Positions 43,667-48,366 of a stretch of 48,366 nt of DNA are shown piece by piece (positions within the stretch are counted from its first letter, which is position 1; each line of letters begins with the position of its first letter). The translations under genes and the position numbers were made by a program. The stretch comes from an uncultured Pseudomonadota bacterium (lineage in GTDB: Bacteria > Bdellovibrionota_B > Oligoflexia > Oligoflexales > CAIYRB01), in the NCBI GenBank assembly GCA_903915625.1, contig CAIWTN010000032.1, positions 1 to 48,366 of the forward strand, given 5' to 3'. The notes under the pieces were generated by a model, which searched no databases, had not been told where the DNA came from, and was given only the letters and a program-made list of their open reading frames with translations.

Positions 43667-43714
43667 ATATTTATTAGTATGCCGTGTTCAGTGAACCTAT
43701 TTCAGGGGACCGGC

Positions 43715-45169
43715 ATGCTAAAAGCTAGCGCTTGTTTGCTACTTTCCCTTGTTTTTTCATCGGCTTGTGGGTCGGATCGCGATATTTTTGGCCACCGCAA
43801 ATCCGCTGACCCCGCACCGGCTCCGGCCGATGACCCCGATAAGACCACTGGCACCTCACCCGGAGGCACCAATGTCTCGCCGGGCAGTCCTATGACCACT
43901 AAGGCAGTGCTGGACCAGGCTGACGGCGATTCTTATCTGACCAACGTCGCAGCCCTCATTGCTTCCGTAGGACTTGGTCCATACCATCAGCTTGGTAAAC
44001 ACGGAAAAAATATCAAGGTAGCCATCCTCGACAACGGCTTCGCCGGGCTAAACAACAGCCTTGGTAAGCGCCTCCCCCCGGACACCGAACTGGTCAAATC
44101 CCCATTGGATCAGATGGAAAATACAACGCACGGCACCAAGTTGGCCGAAGTTCTATATGCCTTGGCTACGGGACAGAATAAGTACTCCGAGAAAGTGGAC
44201 GGACCAAAAATTATTTTGATGAACACGAATGGGTTTACCAACTTTAAGCATGCAGTAAAGCAGGTCATTGAACGCAAGATTGATATCGTCCTTTACGCTC
44301 AAGTCTGGCAATACTTCGGCAACTTCGATGGCAAAGGCTTCATCAATACAGAAGTAAACAAAGCCACTAAGACTGGCGTGCTGTGGATCAACGCAGCAGG
44401 TAATATGGGACAATCGACCTATAATGGCCCTGTGAACATCGGCAGCGATGGCGTCACAGTAACACTCCCGCATGAACAACGGTTCGTGCGTTTCACCGTT
44501 CCCCGTGATCAAACTTCGGTTAGTATCGCACTAAACTGGAACGACTATAAAGACACGACCAACTTCGCCACTCAACAAGATCTGGATTTGATCTTGGAAG
44601 ATACTTATCAGCATCAACTCGGTACGGGGCGGTTGCGCCAGACTGGCCCGAATGGCAACAAGAGCGATCCTCAGTACTCAGCTTATCCGCGAGAAACTAT
44701 TTCCACCGTACTCAATACAGGCACCTATCTGCTCCGGGTCGAGGCCAACAACCGCAACTTTACAGCGGCTTCACAGCTAAGACTTAGCATCGACGGCGAA
44801 GGCGTCAAGATGCTGGATCAAGTGAGTGACAACAGCGTTGGCATTCCTGCGGATAATCCGAGCGTGCTGACGATTGGTGCCGGAGATGTCGACTATAGCG
44901 GTAAAATGCCCGCAGCAGGCAGCAACAAAGCTAAACCGGAGATCCAGGTCGCATCATCTGAAGTACGCTTTTCCGACGGTGAACGGCATTTTGGGACGTC
45001 GGCTGCATCGGCGATCGTAGCGGCTGGGCTGGCAGTGTTTCAAGGCACCTACGGCACCTTCGATAGAGCCAGAGCGTTGGACATGATCGGGAAAGGTGTT
45101 TTAGCTACTGCAGAAAGTAGACAAGCACCCTCCCCTACTTTCAAGCTAGGTGTGCCGAGGACGCGCTAG
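43715..45169 (+). CDS. Second subtilisin-like (S8) protease lipoprotein
   Basis: 484 residues from the ATG at 43715, which has AGGGGA about 6 bases upstream. A lipoprotein signal (Cys18 in SSAC) and a Pro/Asp-rich linker precede the S8 domain. The residues are Asp106 (ILDNG), His139 (THGT), oxyanion Asn230 (AAGNMG) and Ser429 (FGTSAASAIVA). A beta-sandwich insert (about 235-375) lies between the oxyanion Asn and the Ser, as in some PPC- or PA-like-domain-containing proteases. The order of the triad is subtilisin-like, but motifs are divergent (Asp in DNG, Ser in GTSAA). The gene is directly followed by a transposase relic, and a short piece of it is repeated near 47.5 kb. Confidence 0.9.
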   Translation: MLKASACLLLSLVFSSACGSDRDIFGHRKSADPAPAPADDPDKTTGTSPGGTNVSPGSPMTTKAVLDQADGDSYLTNVAALIASVGLGPYHQLGKHGKNIKVAILDNGFAGLNNSLGKRLPPDTELVKSPLDQMENTTHGTKLAEVLYALATGQNKYSEKVDGPKIILMNTNGFTNFKHAVKQVIERKIDIVLYAQVWQYFGNFDGKGFINTEVNKATKTGVLWINAAGNMGQSTYNGPVNIGSDGVTVTLPHEQRFVRFTVPRDQTSVSIALNWNDYKDTTNFATQQDLDLILEDTYQHQLGTGRLRQTGPNGNKSDPQYSAYPRETISTVLNTGTYLLRVEANNRNFTAASQLRLSIDGEGVKMLDQVSDNSVGIPADNPSVLTIGAGDVDYSGKMPAAGSNKAKPEIQVASSEVRFSDGERHFGTSAASAIVAAGLAVFQGTYGTFDRARALDMIGKGVLATAESRQAPSPTFKLGVPRTR

Positions 45170-45437
45170 ACTTACGAGTTATCTGCGACGTCAGCTCCAA
45201 AGCGCCAGTATGCACATCCTGACGATAGACGGTGTTTACGCGACGCCGGCGGTGGAAGGCTTGGCGCCGTGCCTCCACACGATTTGCGGGCCAAGCAACA
45301 AGGATGTCGGTACGACCGTCGAGAAGATTGCCAGACGCTCAGTCAAACTCCTGCGGCGCCGGGGCTATCTTGATAGCGAAGCCGAGTTCATCATGAGGCC
45401 GGATGCCGACGAGATGTTCCTGGGGCCGCCTATATAA
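45168..45437 (+). pseudogene. IS91-like transposase remnant
   Basis: About 88 codons. HILTIDGVYATP, then IARRSVKLLRRRGYLD and PDADEMF, follow the order of the conserved central part of IS91/IS801-type rolling-circle transposases (HFHxLxLDGVY). The N-terminal zinc-binding and the C-terminal catalytic parts are missing, and the frame ends at 45437. It begins exactly at the stop of the subtilisin gene. A relic, not a working element. Confidence 0.72.
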
Positions 45438-45777
45438 TTGACTTTGTGTCCAAGCAGATTTTGGTGTTTTCGGGCGAAGCATTGACCAGCGGAACTCGCA
45501 AATTTAACTAAGGAAAAACGGAGAAAGGAAAGGTGGGCAGCAACAAGCAGTACATCATTTTACAATCAATGGGCTCAACTTGTGGTGATCTGATTTAATG
45601 CTCTAATAAAGAGCTCATATATATAAGACACTAACACGCGGTATACGGCCTTGCTTAAAAAGCGACTAAACAAAAATATTATTATATGTTAACGAATCTA
45701 CCTTCCTTCGTCGTTCTCTGTTCCCTGATTAACATGAATAGCCTGATTGACACCTAAACTTCAGAAAGCTTTGGTCC
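45438..45777. other. Non-coding AT-rich region
   Basis: 340 bases without a convincing frame. The second half is AT-rich (TATATATAA, TTATTATATG). A small hairpin, GCTCT-AATAA-AGAGC, sits at 45600-45614. It probably contains the promoter of the following lipoprotein gene and decayed insertion-sequence remains. Confidence 0.5.
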
Positions 45778-47097
45778 ATGGCAAAGAAACTACTGTGCGT
45801 CCTATCGTTGATCATCTTCACAAATTTGTTGGCGGCTTGTAGCGACAAAACCCAATCGGACGACGACGGAGCAAAGCGGCGCAGTTCAGCGCCATCAGGC
45901 GGCCCGGCATTACCGCCAATCGCAAATAAATCACCGTTAATCTCGCCAACAGCTCAGCCTGCACCGGATCAAAGTAACAACGCGTCCAGCTCAGCTACTG
46001 CGACCGCTCCAGTTGCGCAACCAACGCCGAACGCAGCCACCACGGCAACAGTCAAGGCAGCGCCCAGCTGCAGTGCTACAGACATGCTGGAACTACGTAG
46101 TCGGATCAAGTTCACAAAAATCACCGCCGATGATGATTATTTCACGGCAAGAAATCTCAATTACATTCTTCAATTCGGCGTGTCCGGCAAATACATCATG
46201 GTGACCTATGTCGACCCAAGCACCAGTCTTGGACACGTCATCAGCTCGGTCGATAGCGGCCTTTCCTGGAGAAATTCGACGACTCTTGGCGGCGAAAATA
46301 TCGACAGCTTGCCGCAGATGAATGGATCCGCGATTGACCTAGCCGGGGATAAAAAGATAGCGCATTCCCCAGATCTCGGCGCCACCTGGCAGTACTACAA
46401 CCTGCAAGACTTGGGTCTACCGGTAGATACCAAGTTTATAAACCTTACTGGTGATGGCGACCGACTGCTGACCTCCACGTTTACTGCTAAGTCTGAGTCA
46501 CCTCGTTATTTAGCGCAATTCTGGCTTCGAGAAGGATCTAAATGGCGCGAAATTCTAGGACCGAAGATTGATAAAGTTATCACCTCGGACTTGTATCTTC
46601 ACGGCCAGGAAGTGGTAGCCGTCTTTGGCGACGAAGTGGCTTACAGTTTAGATTTAGGGAGAACATGGAGCAATTACTCCGTAGGATGTGAAGCGAAGAT
46701 CCGGAGTAATGCTGATAAGTGGTTTCTTACCTGTCGCGACGGGACTATAGCCTACTTAGCAGACGATAAGTCGGAACGAGTTAGGTTAGGCGCTGGTCGC
46801 GGTGAATTGGCTGTGCCTTATCTTGGGTCCGACTTTGTTCTGCGCATGGACTCTTTCGCGGTTTCTTTTTCTTTTGACAGTGGTACGAGCTGGAAAGCGG
46901 TACCGACATCTGCGTTATTCGCTACCCAGCGTTTTCCTAAACGATTTGGTGACGACGAGTGTGCATCTTTCGACCGCCCCCTTACGGTCTATGACGTGAT
47001 TGGAAGCGAGAATAAGGACGTCTTCTACATCGCGACTTACACCGGGATCTGGAAGGCCGAGCGGATCGTTGCGGCTACCGACGCCAAAGCTCCGTAA
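45778..47097 (+). CDS. Lipoprotein with Asp-box (BNR-like) propeller
   Basis: 439 residues. A clean lipobox (LAAC, Cys21) is followed by a 75-residue Pro/Ala/Ser linker. Then come Asp-box motifs of the sialidase/YCF48 kind, SxDxGxxW: SVDSGLSW, SPDLGATW, SLDLGRTW and SFDSGTSW, spaced 50-110 residues apart. These mark the blades of a beta-propeller. Known relatives hydrolyse glycans or bind partner proteins; the catalytic arginine triad of sialidases is not evident, so binding is more likely. No operon partner. Confidence 0.78.
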   Translation: MAKKLLCVLSLIIFTNLLAACSDKTQSDDDGAKRRSSAPSGGPALPPIANKSPLISPTAQPAPDQSNNASSSATATAPVAQPTPNAATTATVKAAPSCSATDMLELRSRIKFTKITADDDYFTARNLNYILQFGVSGKYIMVTYVDPSTSLGHVISSVDSGLSWRNSTTLGGENIDSLPQMNGSAIDLAGDKKIAHSPDLGATWQYYNLQDLGLPVDTKFINLTGDGDRLLTSTFTAKSESPRYLAQFWLREGSKWREILGPKIDKVITSDLYLHGQEVVAVFGDEVAYSLDLGRTWSNYSVGCEAKIRSNADKWFLTCRDGTIAYLADDKSERVRLGAGRGELAVPYLGSDFVLRMDSFAVSFSFDSGTSWKAVPTSALFATQRFPKRFGDDECASFDRPLTVYDVIGSENKDVFYIATYTGIWKAERIVAATDAKAP

Positions 47098-47135
47098 GTA
47101 GAATTATGATTGGGTAGCCGTAGTCTTCCGTGTGA

Positions 47136-47469
47136 TTAATTGACTCCGACCGCGGACCATGCAGCAGCTACAGCTGCATACTGGACAGAGCTCTCCGTGA
47201 ATAAATCGCGGGCTGCATTGAGAGTGGCCCTGCAAGCACCAGGATTGTTCCAAAGCGCGCTGCTAATGAAAGGCGATCCATTCGTTATTGGGTGGATTCA
47301 ATTGGTCAGCTGATTCCGTGATTTTAGGTCCCGTCCAATCGGCTGCTATCTGCTCAATCGACGTCGATTTGCCAACCTGTCGCGGGCCTATGAGTACAGG
47401 ATCTGTGGTATCAGGGTTTTGATAAGTATCAATGATTAGATTGGTTAGAGCGAGAGCCTGGCACCATAA
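47136..47469 (-). pseudogene. AAA ATPase (DUF4143-type) remnant
   Basis: The leftward frame 47263-47469 encodes an N-terminal helix (ALTNLIIDTYQNP) and the P-loop DPVLIGPRQVGKST, followed by an ADQLNPPNNEW segment. These fit the start of the ATPases of the AAA_14/DUF4143 type. A stop at 47263 ends it, and a related continuation, frameshifted, may run to 47136 (NAARDLFTESS). There is no start codon and no Walker B; it is a decayed piece. Confidence 0.6.
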
Positions 47470-47590
47470 TCTAAATGCTCTGACGATTGGTGCCGGGGAT
47501 ATTGATTATAGCGGCAAAATGCCTTCAGCTGGCGGCAACAAAAGCCAAGCCGGAGTTACAAGTATCGTATTCTGAAGTACCCATGACGCG
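47466..47590 (+). pseudogene. Truncated, frameshifted copy of the subtilisin gene
   Basis: The stretch coding LTIGAGDIDYSGKMPSAGGNK, then in another frame AKPELQVSYSEVP, is a clear copy of LTIGAGDVDYSGKMPAAGSNK... in the subtilisin gene at about 44852-44973. One extra A after the AACAAA run shifts the frame. The copy begins where the ATPase fragment starts on the other strand. Confidence 0.75.
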
Positions 47591-47658
47591 GGTTATAGGG
47601 CGTGTTTTTTTGGCGTTGAAAAATGGGATGCCTAATGGCTATCGCTTCCGCAACATGG

Positions 47659-47820
47659 CTACAACCGCTGTCGAAAGTCCGGTAATCTCTGGATGACCGG
47701 GCGCAGCTCGGTGTAAAAGTGGCCCTTTTTAAGCTCTGACGAGTACATCCGCGAGCCAGAATACAGAGCCCGTTTAGCCAGTGCATCGCGTGACGACATC
47801 TGTCGCTGACCGGTGCTGGT
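47659..47820 (-). pseudogene. Rpn-type PD-(D/E)XK nuclease/transposase remnant
   Basis: The leftward frame reads LAKRALYSGSRMYSSELKKG then YTELRPVIQ, which matches the central ALYYxSRLYSxQLKKG-xYxxLKPVI segment of Rpn/transposase-31-type proteins. It ends at a stop at 47659, and the upstream frame is closed by a stop near 47842. The catalytic part is missing. Confidence 0.62.
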
Positions 47821-47959
47821 GCAGCGCGGACGAGTCGTAACTCATGATATTAAAGAGTTGCCGAGAGTGCCTGACCCGGGCTCCTTTAGGCGGGCGTTTA
47901 AAACCATAAATATTACAATATGTTGAGATAAATTTGTGGTGTCAAAAAAATATGCTTAA

Positions 47960-47976
47960 GTATTTATGGTAAATAC
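47960..47976. promoter_or_regulatory. Palindrome upstream of brnT, candidate autoregulatory operator
   Basis: GTATTTA and TAAATAC with TGG between them form a perfect 17-base dyad, 27 bases before the brnT ATG. BrnT-BrnA complexes repress their own promoter in characterised systems, so this is a plausible operator. Confidence 0.5.
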
Positions 47977-48003
47977 CGATAATATTAAAAGTGGAAACCA
48001 GTA

Positions 48004-48300
48004 ATGGCGGGTTATGATTGGCATGACGAAAAGAACAAAGAAAACATCAAAAAGCACAGAGTCAGCTTCGAAGAAGCGATCACGGTCTTCAGCGATCCGT
48101 TCCTCCGAATCGCCGGTGATCGCAGCGAAGACTACCCAGAGGACCGGTTCATCGCGCTCGGACAAAGTGGCTCAGGACTCAACCTTTTCGTCGTCTTCTG
48201 CGAGCGAAAAATCGAGGAAGAAGAAGTCATCTGGATTATCTCAGCGAGAAAACAAACGCCTAAAGAAAAGCGCACCTTGGCAGGACTACGATTACGATAA
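48004..48300 (+). CDS. brnT: BrnT family toxin
   Basis: 98 residues. WHDEKNKENIKKHRVSFEEAITVFSDP at the start, then the ALGQSG and VVFCERK strands and ISARKQTPKEKR at the end, are the family pattern of the RelE/ParE-like BrnT toxin, an mRNA-cleaving ribonuclease. Full length. It is followed by an overlapping BrnA-like frame and preceded by a palindrome, the normal brnTA order (toxin first). Confidence 0.9.
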   Translation: MAGYDWHDEKNKENIKKHRVSFEEAITVFSDPFLRIAGDRSEDYPEDRFIALGQSGSGLNLFVVFCERKIEEEEVIWIISARKQTPKEKRTLAGLRLR

Positions 48301-48366
48301 TTTACCCGAGTTAAGCCCTGAGCAGCTTTCTACTTTTAAAGTTGTCACTCAGGATCAGCATGCCAG
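48167..48366 (+). CDS. brnA: BrnA family antitoxin, partial at the right edge
   Basis: At least 66 codons in the frame one base ahead of brnT, open to the right edge. LSQRENKRLKK, then DYDYDNLPELSPEQLSTFKVV, resembles the BrnA N-terminal part (K...DYSDIPELTxEQL). No ATG lies in this frame; the only usual start upstream is GTG at 48167, which would make an overlap of 134 bases with brnT. The DNA-binding C-terminal part lies beyond the window. The start is uncertain, the family likely. Confidence 0.62.
   Translation, partial: MAQDSTFSSSSASEKSRKKKSSGLSQRENKRLKKSAPWQDYDYDNLPELSPEQLSTFKVVTQDQHA

Follow-up and report, generated by a model that had tools for sequence, protein, structure and literature searches.

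The DNA that follows the subtilisin-like lipoprotein gene at 45.17 kb very probably belongs to a small variable island, located between this gene and a convergent HEAT-repeat (HEAT) gene upstream of fusA, which is a decayed insertion hotspot whose pieces are relics. The corresponding site is empty in the congeners and occupied in the genome studied here and in its nearest relative, and it holds degenerate pieces of mobile and toxin-antitoxin (TA)-type genes that have intact relatives elsewhere in these genomes. The site is a real but ordinary decayed insertion and recombination hotspot; it documents, for a little-studied lineage, how mobile and TA-type genes come to land repeatedly between two convergent genes and decay there.

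The window, that is, the whole stretch of 48,366 nucleotides that was analysed, is contig C32 of a 252-contig, 4.42-Mb metagenome-assembled genome (own genome, G000), which is 96% complete. It was compared with the nearest relative (G005), with two congeners (G003 and G002) and with members of another family (G013, G024 and G035). The left flank and the available part of the island are:

43679..45169, + strand: subtilisin-like (Peptidase_S8) lipoprotein gene, intact (PF00082, E=1.7e-9); left flank of the island
45170..48366, no strand assigned: left part of the variable island, truncated where the contig ends; missing in G003 and G002, different DNA in G005

The subtilisin gene has syntenic orthologues in G005, G003, G002 and other families, and the gene order accA-IHF-fmdB-subtilisin-HEAT-fusA is kept across families, being found whole or in part in G013, G024 and G035. 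Only 12-20 bp separate the subtilisin gene from the convergent HEAT gene in G003 and G002, which represents the empty site, and fusA follows the HEAT gene in G003. The own-genome HEAT and fusA genes are located at the left end of contig C137. The earlier note had raised the possibility that 45.1-48.4 kb is absent from relatives, and 45.17-48.37 kb is indeed missing from both congeners. The region is not conserved in synteny with intact genes in relatives, and its pieces do resemble the gene families that had been named.

The own genome and G005 are collinear at 94% identity up to position 45070, and beyond this point the DNA differs. The G005 subtilisin gene (contig C130) is about 32 residues shorter and is followed by rpn, DUF2283/DUF4258 and RelE/XRE-like genes, and its HEAT gene is on contig C49. 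When the available island parts of both genomes were compared, nothing detectable was shared except a dispersed 109-bp element and rpn remnants. An empty site in G003 and G002, together with different DNA at the same junction in G005, bears out the proposal of a site of repeated insertion and recombination. The suspected island edge was also recovered: because the site is empty in the congeners and filled with different DNA in G005, sequence comparison places the left edge at 45169/45170. From synteny we infer that the right edge lies on contig C137 and that C32 joins C137; this join and the total island size are indirect because both island ends reach contig ends in the 252-contig metagenome assembly. 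In the own genome and in G005 alike, the HEAT gene terminates in the 109-bp element, which supplies its last codons, and since the same element has this position in both, its presence at the right boundary is judged to predate the split of the two species.

As in known insertion hotspots and small genomic islands, relatives carry an empty site with conserved flanks, neighbouring genomes have different contents at the same position, and TA and mobile gene remnants are present. The difference is that the island yielded neither an integrase nor a tRNA nor a flanking target repeat (tRNA and RNA-family scan; ORFs of the available island part) and is not closed by the assembly; an integrase, a tRNA target and att repeats are typical of integrative islands and optional for a hotspot. 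An artefact of metagenome assembly or binning could in principle give such a picture, and on either side of the island the contigs do terminate within or close to repeats. This explanation is very improbable, however: the flanks are collinear with G005, and chimeric joins are disfavoured because the pieces, at 78-88% identity to their own-genome homologues, are too diverged to stem from those copies.

The patchwork that the earlier note had described at 45.17-47.96 kb is real. All named pieces (IS91, lipoprotein, AAA ATPase, subtilisin copy and rpn, followed by brnT) were recovered close to their proposed positions by ORF analysis, family scans and homology searches, with E-values far below chance. 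Absent from its inventory were two pieces: 49 bp from the start of a reverse-transcriptase gene (47581-47629) and most of the ~109-bp element. The features are:

45228..45423, + strand: IS91/ISCR-type transposase gene fragment, 196 bp (NCBIfam ISCR, E=2e-4)
45778..47097, + strand: Asp-box (BNR/sortilin-like) lipoprotein, intact ORF of 439 aa (lipobox LAAC and four SxDxGxxW boxes)
47237..47397, - strand: internal fragment of an AAA_14/DUF4143 ATPase gene, 161 bp, one in-frame stop (homology to L010)
47378..47470, + strand: ~109-bp dispersed inverted-repeat element, a RAYT-associated TIR dimer (79% to L011:1549-1624; covariance model 25.9 bits, E=0.003)
47466..47580, + strand: copy of subtilisin codons ~392-430, 115 bp, frameshifted (direct repeats D1/D2, 81% and 75%)
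47581..47629, + strand: start region of a reverse-transcriptase gene, 49-bp fragment (82-84% to L012:1840-1794 and L037:1695-1649)
47639..47697, - strand: 3' end (C-terminus) of an rpn (PDDEXK_2) gene (83% to the Rpn C-terminus on G005 C130)
47692..47802, - strand: middle part of the rpn gene, codons ~96-134 (88-95% nt identity to intact rpn on own C246 and G005 C115)
47799..47877, - strand: DNA upstream of rpn, ending in the TIR-like terminus GAGTGCCTGACCC (90-92% to G005 C115/C109)
48004..48300, + strand: brnT toxin gene, intact (PF04365, E=1.7e-23, 83.1 bits, cut-off 34.5)
48262..48366, + strand: predicted start of the brnA antitoxin gene, start position inferred, cut by the contig end (complete frame in G003 L038)

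The IS91-like piece shares 68% aa identity over 65 aa with a decayed element on G003 C14 that has a Y2_Tnp (PF04986) match; intact Y2_Tnp genes are present in G003 and G002, and no intact relative of the piece was found in the own genome. The lipoprotein gene was correctly described as an intact gene amid fragments, its 439-aa frame being open. Its match to Sortilin-Vps10 (E=2e-5) is below the cut-off of that family. No relatives were found among 55 related genomes or in plasmids, and on this comparison the protein is classed as species-specific.

Intact homologues of the AAA, rpn and reverse-transcriptase pieces are present elsewhere in the own genome. The ATPase piece matches an intact gene on own contig C199 (L010:3753-4922) with 90% aa identity over 51 aa, and the stretches matched by the reverse-transcriptase piece lie at the starts of RVT_1 genes. 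These RVT_1 genes (L012:430-1800 on contig C200, and L037:286-1593) are located near HigBA-like genes, the one on C200 also beside ParA-like genes, and display weak similarity to group II and antiviral reverse transcriptases. The subtilisin copy has 80% nt identity to the own gene and 83% to that of G005, over a length too short to date the copy. We also considered it as a direct repeat marking site-specific integration, a reading that was dropped because the copy covers an internal stretch only and is decayed.

The rpn copy in the window is dead, having lost two internal stretches that intact copies retain, and in this it differs from the Rpn genes described before (PMC5350276, PMC10327210); the likeness lies in the family match of its intact paralogues (TIGR01784/PF12784) and in insertion ends that vary, a feature reported for rpn loci. 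The window piece has 79% aa identity to an intact homologue (L009) with a PDDEXK_2/TIGR01784 match. The own genome contains four full-length rpn genes. The piece had been called an Rpn-type transposase, and a decayed rpn piece is present, but Rpn proteins are TA nucleases (genes-within-genes), not established transposases. They are now described as unable to transpose by themselves (PMC10327210), so the "Rpn transposase" should not be taken as a mover. The brnTA module said to follow the patchwork is represented by an intact brnT and by the predicted start of brnA, whose frame stops short because the contig ends, not through decay. From position 47900 on, the module is also found on G003 C41, beside a ParA-like gene, and on G005 C85, and it starts at this same base at unrelated sites in both genomes.

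To account for these pieces, we propose that the gap between the two convergent gene ends tolerates insertions, so that TA modules, rpn, IS91 and plasmid-borne genes would have landed there repeatedly. Most arrivals would have lost their function, deletions and illegitimate end-joining would have left adjoining pieces of 50-200 bp, and the lipoprotein and brnTA would be intact passengers. The joins show 5 bp in common (AGCAC) between the ATPase piece and the element and about 1-4 bp elsewhere, which is not clearly beyond chance; a strong microhomology signature was not upheld, since BLAST overlaps of 4-6 bp fell to this single 5-bp case on inspection. The right two-thirds of the element are clear (47393-47465), the ATPase piece replaces its left end, and its other end meets the subtilisin copy exactly, in keeping with insertion of the element at this point.

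Alternatively, template switching, in which microhomology-primed copying draws on several loci, could have joined the pieces within a single event or a few. Rpn may have provoked it, as proposed for RpnA of E. coli, which is known for RecA-independent recombination and frees 3' ends, for which a template-switch model was put forward (PMC5350276). In favour are several short pieces of different origin in the genome that adjoin without spacers, overlapping by 0-5 bp, and the four full-length rpn genes mentioned above. We consider this improbable, since the pieces are unequally diverged from their homologues (78-95%), which suggests different ages, the rpn pieces lie in order so that simple deletions suffice, and the exact coincidence of element and subtilisin join points to insertion.

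Besides the decayed hotspot, the 109-bp element deserved attention of its own. About 35 copies were found in the own genome and 52 in G005, and 20 aligned copies have inverted ends with 11 conserved pairs. The covariance model gave 31 strict hits in the own genome, 52 in G005 and one each in G001 and G002, a few of the hits being one palindrome counted on both strands, and none in the other relatives searched. The element motif GGGGTCAG fits GGGGWSAS, and copies with GGGGTCGG differ from it at one base; terminal repeats of this type were described for RAYT-like transposases (TIRtron/TIRYT, PMC3733652). A RAYT-like gene of 183 aa on contig C147 (L106/L131) carries the ends of the element: GGGGTC heads precede it, and a tail follows 7 bp after it; it matches Y1_Tnp above the cut-off and reaches 64 bits with NF047646, under the cut-off of 80. 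The family combines a multi-copy inverted-repeat dimer having a GGGGWSAS end with a RAYT/Y1 gene flanked by the same ends, as do RAYT-associated TIRs. It resembles TIRtron/TIRYT and REPINs (PMC3116915) in the type of end, hairpin dimers, RAYT-like gene with the same ends and tens of copies. Unlike anything found for those systems in the literature searched, it forms arrays in which elements of the same direction enclose complete TA or ATPase genes.

Some copies are located at or near gene 3' ends (L011:1519-1628 on C137; L119:4441-4525; L131:6033-6142). On C137, the HEAT gene takes its final codons and its stop (GVRHSL*) from the element, and the C-terminus at L119 is similar. The left end of C137 (L011:4-1348) belongs to a large family of repetitive, tail-fibre-like proteins, of which the own genome and G005 contain dozens of partial copies.

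The elements are clustered, with 7 adjacent pairs within 2 kb in the own genome against 0.5 expected and 13 in G005 against 1.2 expected, exceeding all 20,000 random placements, which ignore contig structure. Arrays were seen on G005:C139 (L116), G005:C126 (L120), G005:C6 (L118), G000:C22 (L117) and G000:C186 (L119), with the elements mostly in one direction, 0.6-1.6 kb apart, and one or two genes between them. The enclosed genes are TA-type pairs, AAA/DUF4143 ATPases and two unnamed small families. One element-ATPase-element unit is 90.5% identical over 1.6 kb between G000:C22 (4969-6575, L117) and G005:C139 (2705-4321, L116), that is, at different loci in two species, and the homology stops at the elements. 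Among the element-containing loci, other flanks common to the own genome and G005 also end at elements. Such breaks, sampled from element-containing loci only, suggest a fit with cassette-like exchange.

Palindromic repeats of ~109 bp and constant length with small TA genes between them recall the cassette array of a chromosomal integron, an explanation that we regard as barely conceivable and rejected. No IntI integrase family exceeded the cut-off in the own genome (96% complete), the repeat ends GGGGTCRGGCACT...AGTGCCYGACCCC are without the GTTRRRY/RYYYAAC boxes (attC R boxes) by visual inspection of the 20-copy alignment, and the RAYT-like gene has the same ends as the repeats.

A tentative and rather doubtful possibility is that the 109-bp elements border exchangeable cassettes in the two species, in which TA pairs, AAA_14/DUF4143 ATPases and unnamed convergent pairs would move, or be exchanged, from site to site as element-gene-element units, an HUH-transposase analogue of integron cassettes; the ATPase-element remnant of the window would then be a dead cassette. 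That the window itself is part of such a gene-cassette system, with elements delimiting mobile blocks of which one decayed here, is unlikely. The arrays enclosing TA and AAA genes and the interspecies breaks at element ends speak for it. On the other side, the window has one clear element, which is degenerate and joined to broken genes on both sides, element insertion at gene ends plus ordinary recombination could look alike, and the loci were picked for containing elements. A cassette system would be compatible with the decayed hotspot, to which it would add a mechanism.

TIMEs (PMC4133298) and pdif/dif modules (PMC7885321, PMC13141974) likewise have short repeats bounding blocks, often with TA genes. 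Unlike the RAYT-type repeats, for which mobility is only putative, they use Tn3-type (TIMEs) and XerCD (pdif/dif) recombination enzymes. If the 109-bp repeats do border exchangeable blocks, this would be a RAYT-type system moving host genes, of which no description was found in the literature searched, and the arrays are a lead of possibly wider interest than the hotspot.

The two small families (~131 and ~115 aa) form convergent pairs with overlapping 3' ends, present as diverged copies between elements:

L116:4965-5651; L118:2068-2802; L120:3813-4481; L128:2154-2867: convergent small-family pairs

The two proteins tested had no Pfam or NCBIfam match, and the pair is possibly an undescribed two-gene module.
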